Origin: a bacterium
Lineage (GTDB): Bacteria > Vulcanimicrobiota > Vulcanimicrobiia > Vulcanimicrobiales > SCRA01
Assembly: GCA_004297985.1 (NCBI GenBank)
Contig: SCRA01000004.1
Location: 1 to 64,000 of the forward strand
Length of the DNA stretch: 64,000 bases
Direction: 5' to 3'
Below, piece by piece: positions 18,917 through 44,776 of this stretch. The notes below the pieces were generated by a model, which saw only the letters and a program-made list of their open reading frames with translations, was not told the origin of the DNA and did no database searches. A program made the translations under genes and the position numbers. Positions within the stretch are counted from its first letter, which is position 1. The number at the start of each line of letters is the position of its first letter.

Positions 18917-18945
18917 TTGACGCCACCTAGGGGCGGCGATACTAT
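18917..18945 (+). promoter_or_regulatory. sigma70-type promoter of the aromatic degradation operon
   Basis: TTGACG (18917-18922) and TACTAT (18940-18945) are separated by exactly 17 bases, a near-consensus promoter. Transcription should begin near 18952. The promoter overlaps ATG 18944, which argues against that ATG as the start of the first gene. Confidence 0.6.
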
Positions 18946-18975
18946 GACGTTGTTCCCACGGCCCGAGGCAAATCC

Positions 18976-18990
18976 GTCGGACGATCCGAC
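18976..18990. promoter_or_regulatory. inverted repeat, candidate operator
   Basis: GTCGG-acgat-CCGAC, perfect 5-bp arms, lies about 24-38 bases after the predicted transcription start. That is a typical site for repression. The PaaX-family protein encoded at 27754-28614 is the obvious candidate binder, but the motif is short and occurs once here. Confidence 0.4.
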
Positions 18991-18997
18991 CGGTGCC

Positions 18998-19861
18998 GTG
19001 GTTCTTGCACAGAGTAAGGGGGCGTCTACGAATACCATCGTCGTGATCGGCGCCGGCACGATGGGTGCGGGCATTGCCGCGTCCGCATCGGCGGTCGGCT
19101 GCGAAGTCTACCTCGTCGAGCCGGCGGCCGCCGCGCGTGAGCGCGCCGCGGCGGGCCTCACCAAAACGCTCGGGCGTCTTCTTCCCGATGCGGCGACGGC
19201 CGAAGCCGCGTTCGGGCGCATCCATCTCGTCGAGTCCGTCGCAAAGGCAAGCCCCGCAGACCTCTACCTCGAGGCCGTCCCGGAGGTTCTCGACCTCAAG
19301 CGCACGGTCTTCGCGGAGCTAGACCGCGTGGCACCCGCCGACGCGCTGCTCGCAACCAATACCTCGTCGCTAGCGGTAGGCGAGATCGCGCGTCCGACCG
19401 GGCGCGCGCAGAATGTGGTGGGCATTCATTTCTTCAATCCGCCCGCCGTGATGAAGCTGGTGGAGGTGGTGCGCGCCGAGCAGAGCTCCGACGAGAGCGT
19501 GCGCCGTGCCGTCGAGTTCGTCGAACGGCTGGGCAAGACGCCGGTGGTCGTGCGCGACACGCCGGGCTTCGTCGTCAACCGCGTCGCGCGACCCTATTAC
19601 TTAGAGGCGCTGCGCGCCATCGACGCCGGTGCCGCCGACGCCGAGGGCGTGGACGCCGTGCTGGAAGGATTGGGCTTCAAGATGGGCCCCTGCCGTTTGA
19701 TGGATCTCATCGGCCTCGACGTCAATCTCGCTACGACGCGCAGCGTCTACGAGGCGACGCACGTGGAGCGCCTCCGCCCTTCGCCGCTGCAGGAGCGTAT
19801 GGTCGCGGAGGGCCGCCTCGGACGCAAGTCGTCCCGCGGGTTCTACGACTATGGCGCCTAA
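18998..19861 (+). CDS. 3-hydroxyacyl-CoA dehydrogenase, NAD-binding subunit (PaaH N-terminal-like)
   Basis: 287 residues with the Rossmann motif IGAGTMGAGIA (17-27), TNTSSL, and GIHFFNPP followed by the 3HCDH C-terminal helical domain (DTPGFVVNRVARPYY). This enzyme oxidises 3-hydroxyacyl-CoA to 3-oxoacyl-CoA with NAD+. An ATG at 18944 would add 18 residues unlike the family and would lie inside the predicted -10 element, so I place the start at GTG 18998, giving the usual ~285 residues. In PaaH proteins this half is fused to a second 3HCDH domain; here the second half is the next gene, overlapping by 11 bases. Confidence 0.8.
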   Translation: MVLAQSKGASTNTIVVIGAGTMGAGIAASASAVGCEVYLVEPAAAARERAAAGLTKTLGRLLPDAATAEAAFGRIHLVESVAKASPADLYLEAVPEVLDLKRTVFAELDRVAPADALLATNTSSLAVGEIARPTGRAQNVVGIHFFNPPAVMKLVEVVRAEQSSDESVRRAVEFVERLGKTPVVVRDTPGFVVNRVARPYYLEALRAIDAGAADAEGVDAVLEGLGFKMGPCRLMDLIGLDVNLATTRSVYEATHVERLRPSPLQERMVAEGRLGRKSSRGFYDYGA

Positions 19862-20564
19862 GGGACGCGTGGTCGTCTTCGGCCGCGGGCCGGTCGCGGA
19901 CGACATCCTCCACGCCGCGCAGGGCGCGGGTTACCGCGCCATCGTGCTCAAGGACCTCCGCGCCATCGAGCGCGAGGTTCCCGAGGCAACGATCGCCGTG
20001 GAGGCCTGCGTCGCCGATCACTTCCGTAAGCAGGAGGCACTCGAAGCCATCGGCAACGCGCTCCAGCCGCATGCGCTGCTCTTGGCGGACGCCCTTCCCG
20101 CGACCGTCGCCGAGTGCGCCACGTGGACGGGGCAACCGCGCCTGTGCGTGGGCTACGGCGTGGTGGGCCATTTGGCGGATCAGCGCGTGGTGGAGCTGAC
20201 ACGCGGCCCCGCGACCAACGACGAGGCGATGGAGAAGGCACGCGCCTTCTTCGCCGACCTGGGGCGCGAGACGCGCGAAGTTGGCGATCGCCCGGGCCTG
20301 ATCTCCGGACGCACGATCGCGGCGCTGGCGAACGAAGCAGCGTGGGCGGTGACCCACGGCGTGGCCTCCGCCGACGACGTCGATCGCGCCATGCAGCTCG
20401 GCACGAACTATCCGCGCGGGCCGCTGGCGTGGGCCCGAGAGATCGGCGTCGAGCGCATCGTCGCCATCCTCGAGAACATGCGCCGCCACGAGGGCGAGGC
20501 CTACGAGCCTGCGCCCCTACTCTTGGAGATGGCGGGCAAGCGCAAGGAGGCGGTGCCCCGGTGA
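19851..20564 (+). CDS. 3-hydroxyacyl-CoA dehydrogenase-like partner subunit (PaaH C-terminal-like)
   Basis: 237 residues. The C-terminal ~100 residues (DRPGLISGRTIAALANEA, then GTNYPRGPLAWA) are a 3HCDH C-terminal domain. The N-terminal ~130 residues look like a worn Rossmann fold in which the dinucleotide loop reads FGRGPVADD instead of GxGxxG, so independent NAD binding is doubtful. Together with the upstream gene it reproduces the domain order of PaaH-type dehydrogenases (~500 residues) split in two. ATG 19851 overlaps the upstream gene and the TGA overlaps the thiolase GTG, consistent with stoichiometric expression. Probably a structural partner in the dehydrogenase. Confidence 0.72.
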   Translation: MAPKGRVVVFGRGPVADDILHAAQGAGYRAIVLKDLRAIEREVPEATIAVEACVADHFRKQEALEAIGNALQPHALLLADALPATVAECATWTGQPRLCVGYGVVGHLADQRVVELTRGPATNDEAMEKARAFFADLGRETREVGDRPGLISGRTIAALANEAAWAVTHGVASADDVDRAMQLGTNYPRGPLAWAREIGVERIVAILENMRRHEGEAYEPAPLLLEMAGKRKEAVPR

Positions 20565-21763
20565 GCATTATCAAGGACGCGGTCATCGTCGACGGGCTGC
20601 GTACGCCGATCGGCCGCTACGGCGGAGCGCTCGCCGCCGTGCGCCCCGACGACCTCGCCGCCCGCGCCATTGCCGCGCTGGTGGAGCGCACGCACCTCGA
20701 CGCCGCCACCGTCGACGACGTCTACTTCGGGGCCGCCAACCAAGCCGGAGAGGATAACCGCAACGTCGCGCGCATGGCCCTGCTGCTCGCCGGTCTGCCC
20801 ATCGAGGTCCCCGGCGCCACCATCAACCGCCTCTGCGGCAGCGGGATGCAGGCACTGAACTCCGCCGCGATGGCCATTCAGACGGGCGTCGCCGCCACCA
20901 TCATCGCCGGCGGCGTCGAGTCGATGTCGCGCGCTCCCTACGTGATGCTCAAGCCGGAGGCGGCCTACGGCCGCGCCCCCGATCTCTACGACACGACGCT
21001 GGGCTGGCGCATGGTTAACCCCGAGATGCCCGAGCGTTGGACGATCTCGCTGGGTCAGACCGCGGAAGTCGTTGCCGAGAAGTACGCCATCTCGCGCGAG
21101 GATCAGGATCACTTCGCCTACGAGAGCCAGCGCAAGGCGAAGGCGGCCCAAGACGCCGGGCGCTTCGATGCGGAGATCGTTCCCGTCACGGTGCGCGTGC
21201 GCAAGGGGGAGAGCGTCGTCGAGCGTGACGAGCACCCGCGTCCGGAGACCACGCTCGAGTCACTGGCCAAGCTCAAGCCGGTCTTCAAGGCGGGCGGTAC
21301 GGTAACCGCCGGCAACTCGTCGGGCATCAACGACGGCGCCTGCGCCCTCTTGCTGATGGAAGGGGAGCGCGCGCGCGCCGCCGGACTTCGTCCGCTTGGC
21401 CGCTACGTGGCCGGTGCGGCCGCCGGCGTCGATCCCTCCGAGATGGGCATGGGCGTGGTGCCCGCGACGCGCAAAGCGCTCGCGCTGGCGGGGCTCACCG
21501 TCGACGACGTCGATCTCTTCGAGATCAACGAGGCCTTTGCGTCGCAGTCGGTGGCCAGCGTGCGCCAACTGGGTATCGATCCAGGGAAGGTCAACGTCAA
21601 CGGCGGCGCGATCGCGCTCGGCCATCCGTTGGGCTGCAGCGGGGCGCGCCTGGCGGCGACGTTGCTGCACGAGATGACACGGCGCAAGGTGCGCTACGGC
21701 TTGGCCGCGATGTGTATCGGCGTCGGCCAAGGCATCGCTACCGTCTTCGAGAGAGAATCCTGA
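20561..21763 (+). CDS. acetyl-CoA acyltransferase, beta-ketoadipyl-CoA thiolase-like (PaaJ/PcaF type)
   Basis: 400 residues with catalytic Cys92 (NRLCGSGM), His355 (ALGHPLG) and Cys385 (CIGVGQG), all intact. The stretch [18 protein letters not shown] is typical of beta-ketoadipyl-CoA thiolases, which release acetyl-CoA and succinyl-CoA at the end of phenylacetate and protocatechuate pathways. The GTG start overlaps the preceding stop, with AAGGAGG ten bases upstream. In this operon it would carry out the last step. A general acetyl-CoA acetyltransferase role is the alternative. Confidence 0.87.
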
Positions 21764-21764
21764 T

Positions 21765-23252
21765 ATGACGAGCATGACCACGCTGCGCACGACGCAGCTG
21801 CTGATCGGTGGAGCCTGGGTGGATGCGCAGGACGGCGCCACGTATGCCGACCGCAATCCCGCCACGGGAGCTCCGCTGGCCAACGTTGCGGCCGCCTCGC
21901 GCTCCGACGTGGAGCGGGCGATCGCGGCGGCGCGCCACGCCTTCGACACGGGAGTCTGGACGAAGATCCCGCCGGCCAAGCGGGCGCGCATCCTCACCAA
22001 GATCGCGCAGTTGCTCGCCGAGCGCGCGAGCGAGATCGCCGAGCTCGAAGTCGCGGACAACGGCAAGCCGATCTGGGTGGCTAAGGGCGAAGTCAACGCG
22101 CTCATCGAGACCTTCGAGTTCTATGCCGGCGCGGTCACGAAGCTTTACGGCCGCACGATCCCCGGCCCCACCTCCGCTTACCTCACCTACACGCTCAAGG
22201 AGCCGGTAGGCGTGGTGGGCGCGATCGTGCCGTGGAACTTCCCGCTGCTGCTGGCAAGCTGGAAAGTCGCGCCGGCGCTGGCCGCGGGCTGCACGATGGT
22301 GCTCAAGCCCGCGCCTTCTACTCCGCTCACCGCGATCGAGCTGGGGAAGATCGCCCTGGAGGCCGGGCTCCCCGAGGGCGTGCTGAACATCGTCACGGGG
22401 CCCAATCCGGAGACGGGGAAGGCGATCGTCCAGAGCCCGCTGGTCGACAAGATCTCGTTCACGGGATCGACGGCTACCGGCGCGTGGATCGCCGCCGAGG
22501 CGGCCAAGAGCATCAAGCGCGTGACGCTGGAGCTGGGCGGGAAGTCGCCTTCGGTGGTCTTCGACGATGCCGACGTGGACGCCGCCGTGGCCGCGGCCCT
22601 CTACGGCATCTTCTATAATGCCGGGCAGACCTGCGAGGCACGCTCGCGCGTGCTCGTTCAGGAGCGCGTCTACGATGCCTTCCTGGAGAAGTTCGCCGCC
22701 AAGGCGGCCAAGCTCGTCGTGGGCAATCCCATGGAGAAGACGACGCACGTCGGTGCGATCACCCTCCCCGAGCAGTTCGCAAAGATCGAGCGCTACGTGG
22801 CGCAGGGCAAGGCGGAGGCGAGGCTGGTCATGGGCGGCGAGCGCGCCTCCGTCGCCGGCTGCGACGGCGGCGACTTCTTCGCGCCAACGGTCTTCGAGGC
22901 TGACCCGCGGGCCACGATCGCGCGGGAGGAGATCTTCGGCCCCGTAGCCGTGGTGACGCGTTTCTCGAGCGACGACGAGGCGGTGGCGCTGGCCAACGAC
23001 TCCGACTACGGTCTGGCCGCCAGCGTCTGGACCAAGGATATCGGGCGTGCGGGGCGCATCGCGGGGCGTATCCGCAGCGGTACCGTGGCGATCAACACGC
23101 CCTTCAGCGTCTTTCCCGGCGTGCCGTTCGGCGGCTACAAACAGTCGGGCTATGGACGCGAGCTGGGCATCGAGGCGCTGGACCTCTACACCGAGACCAA
23201 GGCAATCGTGACGTACGTGGGCGAGAAGGCGGTGGACGTCTTCCGCGTGTAA
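21765..23252 (+). CDS. NAD(P)-dependent aldehyde dehydrogenase
   Basis: 495 residues, full-length ALDH superfamily. Asn159 in PWNFP, general base Glu256 in ELGGK and nucleophile Cys290 in GQTC are present, as are the GSTATG cofactor loop and the C-terminal [13 protein letters not shown]. The sequence is most like the betaine/phenylacetaldehyde dehydrogenase group. In context it could oxidise the open-chain semialdehyde formed after ring cleavage of an epoxidised aromatic CoA ester (the job of BoxD or the PaaZ ALDH domain), or make phenylacetate from phenylacetaldehyde. It begins one base after the thiolase stop. Confidence 0.87.
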
Positions 23253-23292
23253 CCACCAGATTTACCGGAGTAGCACCGCAGCGAGGACGACG

Positions 23293-24420
23293 ATGGCGAG
23301 AATTGCGACGTTCGACGACTGGATGGATCTGCTCGGCGAGTGGCAGCACGACATCGGTTTGGACACGACCCTCGTCGACCGCTACCTGCCGAACTACACG
23401 CTGCAAGAGAAGTTCGCCGACCTCCCTAGCGAGGAGATCACCTTCGGCGACTTCGCCGGCGAGCGTAAGTGGGAGCGGCTGACGCAGATCCCCGACCAGC
23501 GCATCCGCGACGCGCTGATGAACATGATCGTCTATCAGGGTGATACCGAGTTCGCCTCCAACGAGCAGCAGCGTTTTCTGGTTCACAATGCTCCTTCGGA
23601 ATACGATCTCGCGGCGCTGGTACGCATCATGATGGAGGAGACGCGCCACGGCTTCCAGATGTGCTACCTGCTGATCAAGCACTTCGGCGAAGACGGCAAG
23701 ATCGAGGCACAGAAGCTGCTGGAGCGGCGCGCCTTCGGCCAGCGCAACCGCTTGCTCAACGCCTTCAACAACGACGTCACCCATTGGCTGGACTTCTTCA
23801 CCTACACCAACTTCATGGACCGCGACGGGAAGTATCAGCTCACCATGCTCTCGCACTCCGCCTTCGCCCCGCTGGCGCGCTCGACGCGCGCCATGCTGCA
23901 AGAGGAGTCGTTCCACATGGGCACCGGCATCACGGGGCTCAAGCGCATCGCGGCGGCGGGCGTCATTCCTATCGCGCTTCAGCAGAAGTACTACAACAAA
24001 TGGATCTCGGGATCGCTCGATCTCTTCGGGACCGACCACAGCTCCAGCGCCAGTTGGGCTTACGCCTACGGCATCAAAGGGCGGCCCGACGAGGACAAGA
24101 CCGATGAGCCGGTGGACCGCGAGCATCTCAACGAACGGGCGCGCGATCAATACTACGACGAAGTGACGCGCACCGTTGAGATGGTCAACCAGGCGTGCAA
24201 GGGCGAAGAGCGGCTCTACGTCCCGGACATCCGCTTCAACCGCGCCATTGGAGATTTCAAAGGGCAGCGCTGGTCGGTGGACGGCCGTCTGCTCTCCGAG
24301 AGCGAGTACGCGGCGCATCTGCGCGAGGTGCTGCCCGGCGAGGAAGACGAACGGCTCTTGACCGCGTACTTCAAGCATCCCGAGTGGATACTCCCCAAGG
24401 GGCGAATCGTTCCCAACTGA
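23293..24420 (+). CDS. BoxB-like diiron aromatic-CoA epoxidase subunit (short form)
   Basis: 375 residues. The segments QGDTEFASNEQQ, EETRHG and EESFHMG line up with the diiron ligand motifs of benzoyl-CoA 2,3-epoxidase BoxB: Glu86, Glu116, His119, Asp176, Glu205 and His208 correspond to BoxB Glu120, Glu150, His153, Asp211, Glu240 and His243. Further shared strings are FTDRDGK-like MDRDGK and SLDLFG. It is about 100 residues shorter than proteobacterial BoxB (~473), lacking the N-terminal part and an internal insert. BoxB needs the BoxA reductase, which is not in the window. The CoA substrate (benzoyl, phenylacetyl or other) is uncertain. Confidence 0.8.
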   Translation: MARIATFDDWMDLLGEWQHDIGLDTTLVDRYLPNYTLQEKFADLPSEEITFGDFAGERKWERLTQIPDQRIRDALMNMIVYQGDTEFASNEQQRFLVHNAPSEYDLAALVRIMMEETRHGFQMCYLLIKHFGEDGKIEAQKLLERRAFGQRNRLLNAFNNDVTHWLDFFTYTNFMDRDGKYQLTMLSHSAFAPLARSTRAMLQEESFHMGTGITGLKRIAAAGVIPIALQQKYYNKWISGSLDLFGTDHSSSASWAYAYGIKGRPDEDKTDEPVDREHLNERARDQYYDEVTRTVEMVNQACKGEERLYVPDIRFNRAIGDFKGQRWSVDGRLLSESEYAAHLREVLPGEEDERLLTAYFKHPEWILPKGRIVPN

Positions 24421-24452
24421 CTGCCGGCGCACGGCGCAAGGAAAGCAAAGCG

Positions 24453-25304
24453 ATGGCTACCGAGATGCAGGCTCAACAAACACCGTTCGGCCGCGAGAGC
24501 CGCCCGTTCGACGGGAAGCGGGTCATCAACTACGGCACGTTCGGCCATGTGGCCGTCATCGAAATGTGCGACCCGCCGGCCAATACCTATACGCACGAGA
24601 TGATGCGCCAGCTCGACGAAGCCGTGCTCGACGCGCGCTTCGACAACGAGGTGGAGGTCATCGTCATTACCGGGGCTGGTGAGAAGTTCTTCTCGGCCGG
24701 TGCCAACATCGGCATGCTGAACTCGGTGACGCCGGAGTTCAAATACTATTTCTGCCTCCACGCCAACGAGACGCTGAGCCGCCTGGAGCAGACGCCGAAG
24801 CTGGTGGTCGCGGCGCTCAACGGTCATTGCGTCGGCGGCGGGCTCGAGATCGCCATGGCCTGCGACCTGCGCATCGCGCGGAAAGATGCCGGCAAGATCG
24901 GCCTCCCCGAGGTGGCGCTGGGCGTACTCCCCGGCACCGGCGGTACGCAGCGTCTGGCTCGATTGGTGGGTAAGGCGCGTGCCCTCGAGCTGCTCGTCAG
25001 CGGGCGGACGTTCAGCTTCGAGCAGGCGCAGGACTACGGCATCGTCAACGAGATCTACGAAGGAGACGCAGCCTCGTTCCGCGAGCAGATCCTCGATTAC
25101 GCCAAGCAGTTTACTTCGCCCAATAAGGCGCCGATGGCCGTCGGCCACATCAAGCGCGCCGTGCAGAGCGGCGCGGAGCTCACGCTCGAGGCGGGTCTTA
25201 CGCTGGAACGCGAGCTGCAGTCCCTGCTCTTCAAGAGCCAGGACGCCAAGGAAGGCATCGCCGCCTATAACGAGAAACGGCGGGCCAAGTTCACCGGGAA
25301 GTAA
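24453..25304 (+). CDS. enoyl-CoA hydratase/isomerase (crotonase family)
   Basis: 283 residues. Oxyanion-hole residues in SAGANI (around 81-86) and GGG (128-130) and both catalytic glutamates, Glu132 ([11 protein letters not shown]) and Glu153 ([11 protein letters not shown]), are present, so hydratase chemistry is expected. The ~20-residue N-terminal extension and the [21 protein letters not shown] segment distinguish it from housekeeping crotonases. It likely hydrates an unsaturated ring-cleavage product for the upstream dehydrogenase. ATG 24453 has AAGGA ten bases before it. A 32-base gap on each side keeps it in the operon. Confidence 0.85.
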
Positions 25305-25336
25305 CCGCTCCCTGGGAACGTCTTCGGGAGGACGGC

Positions 25337-25855
25337 ATGGACTTCAACCAGACGGTCCTCGTTGTGTTTCTCGTTGGCTCCGTCTTGATCGTCGCGGCGA
25401 TGATCGGCGTCGCGGCCACCACTCGCGGCGCGCCGCAGCCGCAATCGCAGGTCCAACCGCGCGGCTATGCGCTGAGGGCGCGCTGGTTCTGGGCGCTGGG
25501 GGCTGCCACCGCTCTAGCCTTGCTGATCTCCCTCCCGTTCGTCCCCTACCCCTCGAGCGCCCAGTTGGCGGGAGCGCAGCACGTGAAAGTCACGGCCCAA
25601 CAATACGGCTTCGTGCTGCCGGCGACCATCCCAGCACGGACGCCGATCATCTTCGACGTCACGGCGCTCGACGTCAATCATGGTTTCGGTATCTACGGGC
25701 CCGACAATCGTCTGATCGGTCAAGTGCAGGCGATGCCGGATTACGTCAATCACCTGCCGTTTACGTTCAGCAAACCGGGCCGCTACACGGTGCGATGTCT
25801 GGAGTACTGCGGCGTTGGTCACGCCTACATGCAAGGCGCTTTCGAGGTAAAGTGA
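25337..25855 (+). CDS. heme-copper oxidoreductase subunit II with CuA centre
   Basis: 172 residues. Two membrane helices (about 7-27 and 48-68) anchor a periplasmic cupredoxin domain. All CuA ligands are visible: His115 (DVNHGF), Cys154, Glu156, Cys158, His162 and Met165 in CLEYCGVGHAYM. It should take electrons from cytochrome c or a cupredoxin and pass them to subunit I. At 172 residues it is shorter than classic subunit II and lacks a cytochrome c fusion. ATG 25337 follows GGGAGG. It overlaps subunit I by ATGA. Confidence 0.9.
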   Translation: MDFNQTVLVVFLVGSVLIVAAMIGVAATTRGAPQPQSQVQPRGYALRARWFWALGAATALALLISLPFVPYPSSAQLAGAQHVKVTAQQYGFVLPATIPARTPIIFDVTALDVNHGFGIYGPDNRLIGQVQAMPDYVNHLPFTFSKPGRYTVRCLEYCGVGHAYMQGAFEVK

Positions 25856-27321
25856 TGAGCGAACCGGCGCTGCGGGAAGATGCGGCGGCGAGCCGCGTGA
25901 TGTGGATCTATATGCTCACCGGCATCGCCATCTTCGCGTTGATGGCGCTGTTGGGGCTGACGATGCGGATGGGGCAGGCGAAATGGATCGCGCTCGATCC
26001 TACGATGTTCTATGCGATCATGACGCTTCATGGCGCGGGCATGATCACCGCGATGGCGCTCTGCGGCATGGGCGGCCTGTGGTATCTCATGAACCGGGAG
26101 CGCGCGCTCAGTACGCTCGTCGCCTACTGGGCGTATGCGCTCATGGTGGCCGGCGTCGTTGCCGTTCTCTTGAGCGTCTTTCCCGGGAAGTTCGGCGCCG
26201 GTTGGACGTTTCTCTACCCCTTACCGTTCGTCGGGGCGGCGTGGCCCTCGTGGGCAACGGGGCTCTTCCTGCTCGGCATCGCGCTGGTCAATATCGGCTG
26301 GATCGTCTGGTGCACGCAGATGTTCGGCTGCGTCGTCGCAAAATACGGCGGCATCCGCGGCGCGCTGGCGTGGGATCTCGTCTTCCATCCCAAGCAATTC
26401 GCGGCATCGGGGCGCCATGAGCCTCCGCCGCAGGCGTTCGCGGCGCTCGTCGCGGCCGTCGACGGTCTACTGGCCGGTGCGGCGGGCATGCTCGTCGGCA
26501 TCGCGCTGATCGTGCATTGGCTCTCGCCCTCGATCCCGCTCGACCCGCTCTGGGCGAAGAACCTGACGTACTTCTTCGGCCATACGTTTGCCAATCTGAC
26601 CATCTACATGGCGATCGCGCTGGTCTACGTGGGTCTTCCGCGGTACGCGAACCGCGAGTGGCACACCTCGCAGGTTCTGGCGGTAGCATGGTGGGGGACG
26701 CTGCTCTTCGTGGCGTTCGCGTACTTCCACCACCTGTACATGGACTTCGTGCAGCCGCGGCCGGTACAGTACATCGGCGAAGTCGTCTCCTACTTGGCGG
26801 CCTTTCCGCCGGCGGTCGTTACCGTCTTCGGCGGCGCGCTCTTGATCTTCCGCTCGCAGTTGCGTTGGACGATGGGCTCGATGTTCATGTTCGCCGGCAT
26901 GGCGGGTTGGATCGTGGGCGGCTTCGGCGCCGTCATCGACGCGACGATCGACATCAACTCGACGCTGCACAACACGCTCTGGGTACCGGCGCACTTCCAC
27001 ACGTACCTGCTGGAAGGCGTCGTGCTCTTCGTGCTGGGCTGGATCTTCCACCAGCTCGAGGAGCGCAGCTCCGCGCAGTCTTCTCCGCTCATGCGCTGGC
27101 TGGTGGCGCTGGGCGTCTTCGGCGGCGGTGCGATCTTCTTGCTCGCGTTCTACGTGGCGGGAGCCGACGGCGTTCCGCGGCGCTACGCCACGCAGCCGCC
27201 GCCGGGGCCGGAGATCTCCGCGTGGGCCTCGATAGGCATCATCATCCTGTTGATCGGCTTCCTCATCTGCCTGGTCGAGGCGGTGCGGTTGGCGCGCCTG
27301 CGGCGGGCGGTCGCTCCGTGA
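25855..27321 (+). CDS. heme-copper oxidoreductase subunit I lacking the active-site tyrosine
   Basis: 488 residues, about 12 membrane helices. Candidate low-spin heme ligands are His59 (MTLHG) and His382, the high-spin heme ligand is His380 (VPAHFHT), and the CuB/FeB histidines are His243 (FGHTF) and His292-His293 (FHHLYMD). In A- and B-type oxygen reductases His243 would be followed four residues later by the cross-linked Tyr (GHPEVY); here that position is Asn247. This rules out a standard aa3/ba3 active site and raises the possibility of a CuA-type nitric oxide reductase. It sits inside the aromatic operon with coupled starts on both sides. Confidence 0.85.
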   Translation: MSEPALREDAAASRVMWIYMLTGIAIFALMALLGLTMRMGQAKWIALDPTMFYAIMTLHGAGMITAMALCGMGGLWYLMNRERALSTLVAYWAYALMVAGVVAVLLSVFPGKFGAGWTFLYPLPFVGAAWPSWATGLFLLGIALVNIGWIVWCTQMFGCVVAKYGGIRGALAWDLVFHPKQFAASGRHEPPPQAFAALVAAVDGLLAGAAGMLVGIALIVHWLSPSIPLDPLWAKNLTYFFGHTFANLTIYMAIALVYVGLPRYANREWHTSQVLAVAWWGTLLFVAFAYFHHLYMDFVQPRPVQYIGEVVSYLAAFPPAVVTVFGGALLIFRSQLRWTMGSMFMFAGMAGWIVGGFGAVIDATIDINSTLHNTLWVPAHFHTYLLEGVVLFVLGWIFHQLEERSSAQSSPLMRWLVALGVFGGGAIFLLAFYVAGADGVPRRYATQPPPGPEISAWASIGIIILLIGFLICLVEAVRLARLRRAVAP

Positions 27322-27770
27322 TGACCGCGTCGCGGCGCACGCTCGTGATCGCGCTGCTGGCGGCAGCATGCGTTGTCGCCTCCGTTGTTCCGCCAATCGA
27401 GTCCTCGTCGATACGCCTGGACGTGCAGACGCATCACCTAGCGCACGCCGTGATCATCGCGCTCGGCCTCGCGCTGGGCCTGGTGATCGCCTCGGGGCGT
27501 CCGGTACGCGAGGAGCAGCCGGCGTGGCTGCTGGCCGCCCTCGCCTCGCCGCTGCTGGCGATGCTCTTGATGATTCCCGCCACCTACGATTTCACCGAGA
27601 CGCATCCCGTGCTCCACGCGCTCGACCACCTGGTCTTCGCCGCGCTGAGCCTCCTGACGGCCTACGGGGGGGAGCACTACCTGCGTGGCGTGGGCTGGGC
27701 CGCGGCGATCGCACTGGAACTGATGGCGGTGGGCGCCGCCTTCGGCTACGGCATCATCCTGACGCGCTGA
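27321..27770 (+). CDS. small polytopic membrane protein, possible oxidoreductase accessory subunit
   Basis: 149 residues with four or five hydrophobic helices (about 7-25, 40-57, 68-86, 98-113, 125-146) and little soluble sequence. His and Asp/Glu pairs near helix ends (THHLAH, HALDH) could bind metal or heme, but this is speculation. The ATG overlaps the subunit I stop (TGATG), so it is probably a third subunit or assembly factor of the heme-copper enzyme. No family recognised. Its 3' end overlaps the convergent paaX gene by 17 bases. Confidence 0.7.
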   Translation: MTASRRTLVIALLAAACVVASVVPPIESSSIRLDVQTHHLAHAVIIALGLALGLVIASGRPVREEQPAWLLAALASPLLAMLLMIPATYDFTETHPVLHALDHLVFAALSLLTAYGGEHYLRGVGWAAAIALELMAVGAAFGYGIILTR

Positions 27771-28614
27771 CGTCGCCGAGCGTAGGCGGCGCGGCGCGAT
27801 AGATGCGTTCGAAGAAGCGTGTGGCTCGCGGCAGCAGGAGGCGGTAGTAGTCGGTGAAGGTCGCGACGGCTTCGGCGCGCGGCCACCCGGCGGGAACGAC
27901 ATGGTCTGGAAGCCCCGGATCGAGGTAGAGGAACTTGCGGTAGTCGTGAACCAGCCACTCACGCTCCACGAAGCAAGCGTTCTCCGCCAGCGGCGGGCTC
28001 GCCGCACGCGCGCGCTCCAGACAGGGGCGATACTCCGCAACGAACGCGCGGTAGGCTTGTTCGATTCCGGGAAGGTCCCAACAGCGTGCTGCCAAGGCGC
28101 GGTCGTCGTGCGGCCCCACATTCTCGGCCACGAAGGCATCGACGTGCTCCGAGACGCCGAGCGCCGCGGCGACGTCGCGGAACGGCTGGCAGACGTCGTG
28201 CGGGGCGAGCCACGTCGAGGGTGAGAGCATCGCGCAGCCCAGGAAGATCAGCTCTTTGCGGAGGCGGTCGCGCAGGCTGCGCCGGCGCTCGGGGATGCGG
28301 TAGGTGACGATCCGCCAGCGCCCGTCCCACGCCGCGCTGCGGTCGTGATAGATGCGCGGACTGGCTTGATCGATGATGCGACGGCCGTGCTCGGTAAGCG
28401 AGTAGTACGCCTTATTGCCCACCCGGCGTGCTTTGAGCCAGCCCTGGCGCGCCATGCGCGAGACGGCGGCGCGCACGGCCTGCTCCGAGAGGCCGAACTC
28501 TCCCATGAGCCGGTTCAGGCTGCCGATCCAAATTTCTCCGCCGTAGTTGCGGATGACGTCGCCGAAGAGGGTGAAGATGAAGGACCGGGGGCGTGTGATC
28601 TGCCGGAGTTTCAT
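27754..28614 (-). CDS. paaX: PaaX-family transcriptional repressor
   Basis: 286 residues. The N-terminal winged helix contains IWIGSLNRLMGEFGLSEQ and AVRAAVSRMARQGWL (about 25-65), followed by the PaaX central and C-terminal domains (WRIVTYRIPERRR, then the late helix WLVHDYRKFLYLDP). PaaX proteins repress phenylacetate degradation genes and are released by phenylacetyl-CoA. Its convergent placement at the end of the aromatic operon makes that operon, and the inverted repeat at 18976-18990, the natural target. Start ATG 28614 has no clear ribosome-binding site. Confidence 0.87.
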   Translation of the reverse strand: MKLRQITRPRSFIFTLFGDVIRNYGGEIWIGSLNRLMGEFGLSEQAVRAAVSRMARQGWLKARRVGNKAYYSLTEHGRRIIDQASPRIYHDRSAAWDGRWRIVTYRIPERRRSLRDRLRKELIFLGCAMLSPSTWLAPHDVCQPFRDVAAALGVSEHVDAFVAENVGPHDDRALAARCWDLPGIEQAYRAFVAEYRPCLERARAASPPLAENACFVEREWLVHDYRKFLYLDPGLPDHVVPAGWPRAEAVATFTDYYRLLLPRATRFFERIYRAAPPTLGDVSASG

Positions 28615-30321: not shown

Positions 30322-31014
30322 ATGGCAGAAACGAAAGGCGCCATCGCTCCACTGTCTCGCGCATCGCTGCGGGACCGCGTCTACGGCATGCTGCAGGAGG
30401 CGATCGTCGCCGGTGAGCTGGTGCCCGGCGCCCGGCTGCTCGATCAAGAATTGGCGGCCCGGTTCGGCGTGAGCCGGACGCCCGTTCGCGAGGCCTTGCA
30501 GCGGCTTGAGGACAAGGGACTCGTCGAGAGCGCCCCCGGCGCATACACGCGGGTGGCTCCGCTCGATGCTCGGGAGGCGCGCGACGCCTTCCCCGTGGTT
30601 GCCGCGCTCCACGGCCTCGCAGCAAGATTGGCGCATGGGCGCGTGACCGAGAGCCATCGCATGCGCATGCGCGAGGCGAACCGGGCGTTCTCCCTTGCGC
30701 TGCGCAAGCGCGACGCGAGCGCCGCCATCCGCGCCGACGACGCCTTCCACGACGTGCTGATCGAAGCGTCGGAGAACGCCGAGATCAAGCGCACGCTCGA
30801 GCGGCTCATGCCGAGAGTGCGCCGCCTGGAGTACGCGCAGTTCGGGCTCCTGGGACGCCGCGAGTCCGTCGAAGAGCACGACCACATCCTTGCGGCATGC
30901 CGCCAGGGCACCGCACAAGCGCTGCAGGGGCTCGTCGAGCAGAACTGGCTCAGCCTCGGAAAGCTCTTGATCCGTTCGTTCAAGGAGACCGATGATGCCA
31001 ACCTTAGCGCATGA
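30322..31014 (+). CDS. GntR-family transcriptional regulator (FadR/FCD type)
   Basis: 230 residues. The N-terminal winged helix (about 12-80) contains LDQELAARFGVSRTPVREAL, the classic GntR recognition helix. The C-terminal helical FCD domain has Asp/His residues (DDAFHDVL, HDHILAACR) that bind metal and acid ligands in this subfamily. It probably controls itself and the overlapping SHMT-like gene in response to a small carboxylate or amino acid. The gene overlaps the next start by about 20 bases. Confidence 0.87.
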   Translation: MAETKGAIAPLSRASLRDRVYGMLQEAIVAGELVPGARLLDQELAARFGVSRTPVREALQRLEDKGLVESAPGAYTRVAPLDAREARDAFPVVAALHGLAARLAHGRVTESHRMRMREANRAFSLALRKRDASAAIRADDAFHDVLIEASENAEIKRTLERLMPRVRRLEYAQFGLLGRRESVEEHDHILAACRQGTAQALQGLVEQNWLSLGKLLIRSFKETDDANLSA

Positions 31015-32335
31015 GCGCGTCGATGAGGTACACGATCCCGCGACCCTCGAGTGGGCCCGCACGACGATCGAGCGCGCGCTTTCGCCGCGCATGATCCAGC
31101 ACGAGGTTATCGCCGCCGTCGAGCGCAATGCCATCTGGCGCGGTGAGGAGTGCGTGAACCTCCTAGCGCCCGAGGCGCCGATGAGTCCCACGGTGCGCGC
31201 CCTCCTCTCCTCGGAAGTGGGACAGCGCGCCGCTGAAGGGCACATCGGGCCCAACAACCGCTGGTTTGCCGGCACGCGCTACATCGACGAGATCGAAGCG
31301 CTCTGTATGGAGCTGCTCAAGAAAGTCTTCCGCGCGCGGTACGCGGACCATCGTCTGGTCGCAAGCATGATCGGCAATATGGCCGTCTACGCCACGCTGA
31401 CGCGGCCCGGCGAGACGATCATGAGCCTCAGCCAGCCGTTCGGCGGTCACTCCAGCAATCGTCACGACGGACCGGCGGGCATCCGAGGACTGCGTATCGA
31501 GGACGTCCCCTTCGATCCCGTGGAGCTGGAGGTCGACGTCGAAGCGTTCGCGCGTAAGGCGCGCGCCGTGCGCCCGACGCTCGTGGCACTGGGCGCTTCG
31601 ATGACGCTCTTCCCGCTGCCGGTGAGGCAGATGGCCGAGATCGTCGCGGAGTGGGGCGGGCGCCTCTACTTCGACGGCGCCCATCAGATGGGGTTGATCG
31701 GCGGCGACCAGTTCCAAGATCCATTGCGCGAAGGCGCCTGTGTGATGACGGGATCGGCCGGCAAGACGTTCAGCGGCCCGCAGAGCGGTATGATCGTGTG
31801 GAACGATCCCAAGCTCACCAAGCCTCTCACCGATGCCATCTTCCCTGCTCTTGCCGCGACGCATCAGGTCAATCGCGTGGCGGCGCTGGCCGCGGCGGCG
31901 GCCGAGTTCCTCGCGTTCGGGCACGACTATATGGCGCAGATCGTCGCCAACGCGCAGGTGCTCGCGAAGGCGTTGAATGAGCGCGGCATCTCCATGCTCG
32001 GCGCGCGCAAAGGCTTCACGCGCACCCATCAGGCGATCGCGGACGTTCGATCCTTTGGCGGCGGTCTTGCGGCAGCGCAGCGCCTCGCCGAAGCCAACAT
32101 CATCACGAACAAGAACCTGATTCCCGGCGACGAGGCCGCGGACTGGAATACACCCGGCGGCCTGCGTATCGGCACCACGGAGGTCACACGCTGGGGGATG
32201 AAGGAGCGGGAGATGGAGGCGATCGCCGACCTGATCCACGGGGTCTTGGTCGCCAAGCGCGATCCCGCCGACGTACGCCGCGAGGCTATCGCGCTGCGCA
32301 GGTCGTTCCCGAGGCTGCAGTACTGTTTCGACTAA
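30995..32335 (+). CDS. SHMT-family PLP enzyme with altered lysine motif
   Basis: 446 residues, fold type I PLP enzyme aligned with serine hydroxymethyltransferase over its whole length: AEGHIGPNNRWFAGT matches the SHMT glycine-loop region, FDGAHQMGL provides Asp227 and His230, and the Schiff-base lysine is Lys257 in SAGKTFSGPQSG. Standard SHMT has His before this Lys (THKT); here it is Gly256, and LAPEA replaces the usual ASEN. The TFSGPQ string resembles transaldolase-like SHMT relatives. It may be an aldolase or hydroxymethyltransferase for another amino acid. Two ATGs (30992, 30995); the second has better AAGGAG spacing. Overlaps the GntR gene. Confidence 0.75.
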   Translation: MPTLAHERVDEVHDPATLEWARTTIERALSPRMIQHEVIAAVERNAIWRGEECVNLLAPEAPMSPTVRALLSSEVGQRAAEGHIGPNNRWFAGTRYIDEIEALCMELLKKVFRARYADHRLVASMIGNMAVYATLTRPGETIMSLSQPFGGHSSNRHDGPAGIRGLRIEDVPFDPVELEVDVEAFARKARAVRPTLVALGASMTLFPLPVRQMAEIVAEWGGRLYFDGAHQMGLIGGDQFQDPLREGACVMTGSAGKTFSGPQSGMIVWNDPKLTKPLTDAIFPALAATHQVNRVAALAAAAAEFLAFGHDYMAQIVANAQVLAKALNERGISMLGARKGFTRTHQAIADVRSFGGGLAAAQRLAEANIITNKNLIPGDEAADWNTPGGLRIGTTEVTRWGMKEREMEAIADLIHGVLVAKRDPADVRREAIALRRSFPRLQYCFD

Positions 32336-43864: not shown

Positions 43865-44776
43865 TTGGAACTCTTCATCCAACAGGTGATCAACGGGCTC
43901 TCGCTGGGCGGCATCTACGCCCTCATTGCGCTCGGGTACACGATGGTCTACGGCATCATCGAGCTGATCAACTTCGCACACGGCGACGTTTATACGCTGG
44001 GCTCGTTCTTCTCGATCGCGATCATCGGGCTGCTCGATGCAAGCGGCCGGCTCCATGGCGTGCCGCTCTTGCTGGTCCTGGCCGTGGCGCTCGCCGGATC
44101 GATGATCCTGTGCGGCATCGTAGGGGTGCTCTTGGAGCGCTTGGCCTACCGCAGGCTGCGCAACGCGCCGCGTCTGGCCCCGCTCATCACCGCCATCGGC
44201 GCCTCGTTCATCCTCGAGAATATCATGCAGCTCTGGCGGGGTCCCTCGCCGATTCCCTTCCCCTCCGTGGTGCCCAACGTGACGTGGCATTTCGGCGGCG
44301 TCAACCTCTCGTCCAACGAAGTGCTGGTCGTCGTCATGGCGCTTTTCCTCATGGCCGTGCTGCAGATCTTCATCTACAACACCAGGCTTGGTAAGGCGAT
44401 GCGTGCCACGGCGCAAGATCGCGACGCGGCGCAGTTGATGGGTATCAATATCAACATGACGATCGCCCTGACGTTCTTCATCGGGAGCGCGCTTGCCGGC
44501 GTCGGCGGCTTCGTCAGCGGCATCTACTACGGCTCCACCTGGTTCTACAATGGCTTTGAGGCCGGCCTGAAGGCGTTCACGGCAGCGGTGCTCGGCGGCA
44601 TCGGCAACGTGGCCGGCGCCATGCTCGGCGGCTTCGTGATCGGCATGGTCGAATCGCTGACCGCTGGATTCATCTCCGATCAATGGGCCACCGTGGCCGT
44701 CTTCTTGCTCTTGGTGCTGGTACTGATCTTCCGGCCATCCGGTCTGCTCGGGGAAGTCCTCCCCGATAAGGTGTAG
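43865..44776 (+). CDS. livH: branched-chain amino acid ABC transporter permease
   Basis: 303 residues, about eight membrane helices, starting LFIQQVINGLSLGGIYAL, the LivH signature. GGIYYGSTWFYNGFEAGLKA carries the cytoplasmic coupling region. Forms the translocation channel with LivM. TTG start at 43865 with AAGGA six bases upstream. Ends three bases before livM. Confidence 0.92.
   Translation: MELFIQQVINGLSLGGIYALIALGYTMVYGIIELINFAHGDVYTLGSFFSIAIIGLLDASGRLHGVPLLLVLAVALAGSMILCGIVGVLLERLAYRRLRNAPRLAPLITAIGASFILENIMQLWRGPSPIPFPSVVPNVTWHFGGVNLSSNEVLVVVMALFLMAVLQIFIYNTRLGKAMRATAQDRDAAQLMGININMTIALTFFIGSALAGVGGFVSGIYYGSTWFYNGFEAGLKAFTAAVLGGIGNVAGAMLGGFVIGMVESLTAGFISDQWATVAVFLLLVLVLIFRPSGLLGEVLPDKV

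Follow-up and report, generated by a model that had tools for sequence, protein, structure and literature searches.

Organization of the locus

The window, that is, the whole stretch of 64,000 nucleotides that was analysed, carries three genes on the same strand, coding for a CuA-containing subunit II, a catalytic subunit I and a small membrane protein, and both junctions between them consist of a 1-bp overlap (TGATG; Table 1). The genome to which they belong (G000) has a size of 3.19 Mb and is 96% complete, and its nearest named relatives are metagenome bins of Candidatus Eremiobacterota (WPS-2). The family search returned generic cytochrome c oxidase subunits I and II as the best models for subunits I and II. 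The Rfam search gave zero matches, and a scan of the window for FNR-type boxes yielded 18 loose matches, none of them in the intergenic stretch 5' of the cassette; the single perfect box lies at position 44435, within a branched-chain amino acid permease-type gene. Elsewhere in the window (30992–32335), a serine hydroxymethyltransferase-like protein, scoring 333 bits for a subfamily cut-off of 335, is encoded behind a GntR-type regulator and may not be the housekeeping GlyA.

Table 1. Features of the locus and related genes of the same genome; positions refer to the window unless preceded by a genome handle.
Feature	Position	Strand	Basis or remark
Host operon upstream of the cassette	18944..25304	+	Context, not part of the enzyme
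Subunit II (NorS/CbaB2-like), 172 aa, 519 bp	25337..25855	+	PF00116; best solved match Thermus ba3 CuA domain; hydropathy, motif
Subunit I (NorY/CbaA2-like, catalytic), 488 aa, 1467 bp	25855..27321	+	PF00115, 164 bits; AlphaFold; Foldseek; trees
Helix VI motif H243-T-F-A-N247 (CuB ligand His and Asn at the cross-linked Tyr site)	26581..26595	+	
Helix VII Y290-F-H292-H293 (CuB ligand pair after invariant Tyr)	26722..26733	+	
Helix X H380-F-H382, heme ligands	26992..27000	+	
Third protein, 149 aa, five transmembrane helices, HHxxH, H99/H103 invariant	27321..27770	+	
PaaX-family repressor, convergent	27754..28614	-	TIGR02277, 254 bits vs. cut-off 264.6; context, not part of the enzyme
NosZ, two cNOR-like NorBs and three sNORs	G000:C24:14663-16462 and C30, C54		

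The CuA subunit and the active site of subunit I

Subunit II begins with two N-terminal transmembrane helices (segments 1–34 and 48–75 by hydropathy), followed by a CuA cupredoxin domain. A sequence-only reading of this DNA had attributed to it the complete set of CuA ligands, which is borne out by His115, Cys154, Glu156, Cys158, His162 and Met165. The heme and CuB histidines of subunit I are His59, His243, His292, His293, His380 and His382, and residue 247 is an asparagine (codon AAT at 26593–26595); the coordinates, Asn247 and the five histidines other than His59 had been given by the same reading and all proved correct when the sequence was read again. The AlphaFold model of subunit I (mean pLDDT 86) contains 12 long helices and retrieves heme-copper oxidases in Foldseek.

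Relatives of subunit I were collected by scanning one genome per species; the best 80 of 149 were kept and aligned with the window's enzyme, its paralogues and two plasmid homologues, the alignment being filtered to 81 Asn-type sequences. Every sequence of this set (best 80 of 149 relatives, paralogues and plasmid homologues) that covers site 247 has an asparagine there, amounting to 81/81 in the filtered alignment, whereas the same column of the co-aligned references contains a tyrosine in 13/13 A-type and 2/2 B-type sequences and a glutamine in 3/3 eNOR-type sequences. Thus, Asn247 is neither due to chance nor a local oddity, and the Asn-type enzymes stand apart from the tyrosine-bearing A and B types, and likewise from eNOR. 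Invariant residues across the Asn-type family include Asn247, Tyr251, Tyr258 and Tyr290, and all of these except Tyr258 are absent at the matching columns of A-type, B-type and eNOR sequences. Tyr290, located two residues before the His-His pair and conserved in 81/81 sequences, corresponds to Trp in the A-type, Gly in the B-type and Ser in eNOR. Comparison of the proton channels indicates that Tyr258 and Thr323 agree with columns conserved in the B-type and that Tyr237 (ba3 numbering) and the next channel tyrosine (Tyr244 of ba3) are lost, the latter being replaced by Ile or Val in the Asn-type clade.

A tyrosine provided by another helix, as in cbb3 oxidases, had been named as an observation that would speak against an NO reductase. 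None occupies the cbb3 position, six residues before His-His, where Val286 is found here and V, I or T in 81/81 sequences (the CcoN protein of the same genome, L002, has Tyr at this spacing); the invariant Tyr290, at −2 from His-His, nevertheless remains a candidate. Several known classes were rejected on the basis of these residues, namely A- or B-type oxygen reductases (the cross-linked Tyr of helix VI is absent), C-type oxidases (Val286 instead of Tyr), eNOR (Asn247 and not Gln, the eNOR references branching elsewhere) and cNOR/qNOR, whose H-X-Arom-X-E motif is absent, helix VI reading HTFAN, and the CuA subunit is present. A copy from Candidatus Parvibacillus calidus (L071) has an arginine in place of the helix-VI CuB histidine, which reflects either a sequencing error or a dead enzyme.

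Family placement

In two trees the Asn-type enzymes form one side of a fully supported branch (100/100 in one of them), with the A-type, B-type and eNOR sequences outside. The Asn-type clade contains the megaplasmid operon (L088) of Ruegeria pomeroyi (formerly Silicibacter), as well as Thermomicrobium roseum; the trees were built without Bacillus bNOR, Bacillus CbaA2 and Nitrosomonas NorY, and a Bacillus sequence sought in the plasmid records was absent from the matches listed. The subclade of the window (25/25 rows, support 100/98) spans Eremiobacterota, Methylomirabilota, Planctomycetota and Verrucomicrobiota together with one Acidobacteriales bin. For sNOR, the published active-site residue is N and Silicibacter is among the genera listed (PMC8756737 Table A4). 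Asn combined with CuA has been published as the signature of sNOR (PMC8756737 Table A4; PMC6967387) and also as that of the Bacillus 'type II qCuANOR' (PMC3475470).

Since the asparagine is the signature of that family, we are dealing with a known family and not with a new enzyme. Judging from sequence, we put at about 70% the probability that the three-gene cassette is an sNOR (type II CuA-NO reductase) in Candidatus Eremiobacterota (WPS-2); an already proposed family is thereby extended into a little-studied bacterial phylum. That the window's enzyme is a new member of this proposed family, belonging to a separate subclade that possesses a third subunit of its own, is well supported. The NO reductases of the sNOR family are proposed to have evolved from oxygen-respiring enzymes. 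The sequence-only reading had hesitated between an NO reductase, possibly a new one, and an unusual oxidase: both the family and the neighbourhoods of the relatives favour an NO reductase derived from an O2 reductase, but the presumed novelty has to be given up, as Asn with CuA is published and the enzyme falls inside the sNOR clade.

The third protein

The third protein has no match in Pfam, NCBIfam or the PDB folds. Its model contains five helices (pLDDT 90), and its relatives share the HHxxH motif and a second pair of histidines. In 17/33 relatives (L010, L020, L024, L026–L029, L034, L039–L045, L049 and L051) a C-terminal cytochrome c (CxxCH) is fused to it; Pfam confirms the cytochrome c domain in the L039 fusion, the one that was scanned. 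This suggests that the third protein acts beside a c-type electron donor and, given the fusion in many relatives, its probable role is that of an accessory or docking subunit. Occurring in half of the relatives, the fusion is a pointer to both the electron donor and the role of this protein. Aligned by hhalign with orf1 of the other sNOR subclade, the third-protein profile gives a plausible register but a weak match (13% probability).

Genomic neighbourhood and probable insertion of the cassette

Among the flanking genes of the relatives, DUF2249 is found in 18/50 subclade-I loci (raw count), and others code for ScdA/RIC (ScdA_N/hemerythrin), other hemerythrins, Crp/Fnr-type regulators and DUF1858, as would be expected around genes for NO metabolism or repair; in the window no NO-linked gene adjoins the cassette. 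Polytopic membrane proteins without a Pfam match are encoded near sNOR units in three other loci (L011:12148-13401, L021:7704-8897 and L039:8278-9468) and look like NnrS or heme-copper-like fragments.

The host operon codes for two PaaH-like 3-hydroxyacyl-CoA dehydrogenases, a 3-oxoadipyl-CoA-type thiolase, an aldehyde dehydrogenase, a BoxB-like diiron epoxidase and an enoyl-CoA hydratase, whose stop (25304) is separated by 32 bp from the start of subunit II (25337) on the same strand. The epoxidase (375 aa, window 23293–24420, 245 bits for a cut-off of 499) sits in a Paa/Box hybrid operon with PaaX, has a second relative at G000:C28 and is possibly a distinct epoxidase subfamily.

The site was compared within one genus, with positions 25260–27860 of the window as reference. 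Congener G007 has the same gene order, its subunit I being 95% identical. In G009 (L146:1254-2940) the site is empty, the hydratase abutting PaaX, and in G008 (L145:8403-9379) the hydratase is followed by DacB, again without the cassette; elsewhere in G008, on a different contig, there is a 69% homologue of the enzyme. As the operon occurs without the cassette in these two congeners, the simplest reading is that a self-contained three-gene cassette was inserted at the end of the BoxB-like operon, loss in two lineages being less economical. For the same reason, an ancestral subunit of the aromatic operon was rejected as an identity for the enzyme. An NO dismutase feeding O2 to BoxB was discarded as well, no supporting evidence having been found.

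NO, N2O and O2 metabolism of the genome

The genome contains three paralogues of sNOR subunit I, the copy of the window and those on C30 and C52, the last one ended by the contig end. It also codes for an aa3 oxidase (L001), a cbb3-type CcoN (L002), two cNOR-like NorBs (L003, L004) with the H-X-Arom-X-E and HH-X-Arom-Arom-X17-E motifs, and NosZ (774 bits, cut-off 625). In the genome search, NirS was not found and NirK gave no match above its curated cut-off, so that NO would have to come from outside or from a divergent Nir. Turnover of NO and N2O is made plausible by NosZ and the two NorBs, and with aa3 and cbb3 already present there is no obvious need for a further oxidase. As far as gene content can tell, the genotype resembles that of an NO and N2O consumer.

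Proposed function and alternative explanations

In the proposed mechanism, a c-type cytochrome would deliver electrons to CuA of subunit II, from where they would reach the low-spin heme (His59/His382) of subunit I and then the centre formed by heme (His380) and CuB (His243, His292, His293). There, the presumed reaction would be 2 NO + 2 e + 2 H+ -> N2O + H2O, and the N2O formed could be reduced by the genome's own NosZ. With Asn247 replacing Tyr, the fourth redox equivalent for O2 cleavage would be lacking, a circumstance in favour of two-electron reduction of NO; the latter is the likeliest function, and we consider it probable. For sNOR as a family, however, the support for NO reduction is only indirect (Nitrococcus, as cited in PMC6967387).

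In the N. europaea transcriptome, sNOR is induced strongly, 2.7- to 10.8-fold, at O2 limitation, and the authors favour a high-affinity oxidase (PMC6967387). The sNOR clade could accordingly consist of high-affinity B-type-like O2 reductases which either dispense with the helix-VI Tyr or use Tyr290, the window's enzyme serving respiration at low O2. The invariance of Tyr290 at a position of Trp, Gly or Ser in the reference groups and the location of the cassette after an operon with an O2-dependent BoxB-like enzyme agree with this explanation, yet we regard it as unlikely: the helix-VI Tyr is gone in every member and none is present at the cbb3 position, the neighbourhoods of many relatives are linked to nitrosative stress, the characterised CuANOR of B. 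azotoformans likewise has Asn (PMC3475470), and the genome is already equipped with aa3 and cbb3. The asparagine is not anomalous within its family, and the chance of an unusual oxidase chemistry is small. Apart from Tyr290, no residue was found on which the oxidase explanation could still rest. In its broadest form, which takes all members of the Asn-type clade, the paralogues of Eremiobacterota, NC10 and Planctomycetota among them, to be a lineage of O2 reductases in which Tyr290 would do the job of the cross-linked Tyr, this explanation seems quite improbable; if true, Tyr290 would be a third location of the redox Tyr, besides helix VI (A and B types) and position −6 in helix VII (C-type).

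A link with the BoxB-like operon is a claim on physiology which is compatible with the sNOR assignment: the cassette might shield the diiron site of the epoxidase from poisoning by NO, or couple the breakdown of aromatic compounds to NO respiration under the control of PaaX. The short gap on the same strand, the convergent PaaX gene and the preservation of the arrangement in G007 are in line with such a link, which is doubtful all the same, as two other congeners have the operon without the cassette (the hydratase lying next to PaaX in L146 and to DacB in L145) and the arrangement was seen in none of the other relatives. Least probable is that the enzyme is a bNOR (type I Bacillus CuANOR), which likewise combines a CuA subunit with Asn at the corresponding site (PMC3475470, PMC8756737), since bNOR is described with a 13-helix subunit I, a one-helix subunit II and a 46-aa peptide, as against 12 helices, two helices and 149 aa here, and is reported only from Bacillota (PMC11388526).

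New in the present analysis are the three paralogues, the cytochrome c fusion in 17/33 relatives, the invariant Tyr290 and the empty site in a congener. With its invariant Asn247, Tyr251, Tyr258 and Tyr290, the clade offers a sharp test of NO versus O2 reduction by sNOR. As standard annotation labels sNOR as cytochrome c oxidase, it is easy to overlook that Eremiobacterota, NC10, Planctomycetota and Verrucomicrobiota may turn over NO and N2O.

Comparison with known systems

The sNOR enzymes (NorSY) of Nitrosomonas, Silicibacter/Ruegeria, Deinococcus and Geobacillus resemble the window's enzyme in the Asn, the CuA subunit II and the heme-copper ligands. The megaplasmid operon of Ruegeria pomeroyi belongs to the same clade (38% identity) and comprises, in this order, subunit II, subunit I, SCO, a membrane protein and a formate/nitrite transporter. 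Unlike this norS-norY-senC-orf arrangement, the subclade of the window has no adjacent senC/SCO gene, and its third gene codes for the five-helix HHxxH protein, which is only weakly similar to sNOR orf1. A senC/SCO gene beside the cassette is usual in sNOR and not defining, none being annotated beside the Thermomicrobium homologue either.

The putative type II qCuANOR of Bacillus azotoformans, with homologues in Geobacillus, is encoded as CbaB2-CbaA2-SenC2-CbaC2 (Heylen and Keltjens, 2012; PMC3475470). It is described with a two-helix CuA subunit of 519 bp, a 12-helix subunit I of 1482 bp containing Asn, SenC and a polypeptide of 4–5 helices (PMC3475470). Compared by description, the genes for subunits II and I have 519 and 1467 bp in the window versus 519 and 1482 bp, and the helix counts agree; SenC is present in Bacillus and absent here. 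The three-gene set with a small membrane protein, which the sequence-only reading had put forward as possibly new, is therefore a layout already known apart from the absent SenC. Type I CuANOR (bNOR) of the same Bacillus is a purified and biochemically characterised NO reductase with Asn, CuA and the histidine sextet, whose subunit I (1707 bp, ~568 aa) has 13 helices and is accompanied by a one-helix CuA subunit and a third peptide of 46 aa (PMC3475470). Compared in the same manner, by description, the window differs from it in having 12 helices in 488 aa, a two-helix subunit II and a third protein of 149 aa.

Thermus ba3 (B-type) provides the closest solved sequences for both subunits and has the same set of ligands; its Tyr237 is replaced by Asn in the window, where subunit II has one helix more. 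The homologue of Candidatus Methylomirabilis oxygeniifera (L019) is 64% identical, belongs to the subclade of the window and is encoded in the same set of three genes. The published annotation of the M. oxyfera and M. lanthanidiphila genomes lists one sNOR (Damo_0801-0802; PMC6094997), and as no other Asn-type heme-copper enzyme was found in the M. oxygeniifera genome, L019 probably corresponds to Damo_0802.
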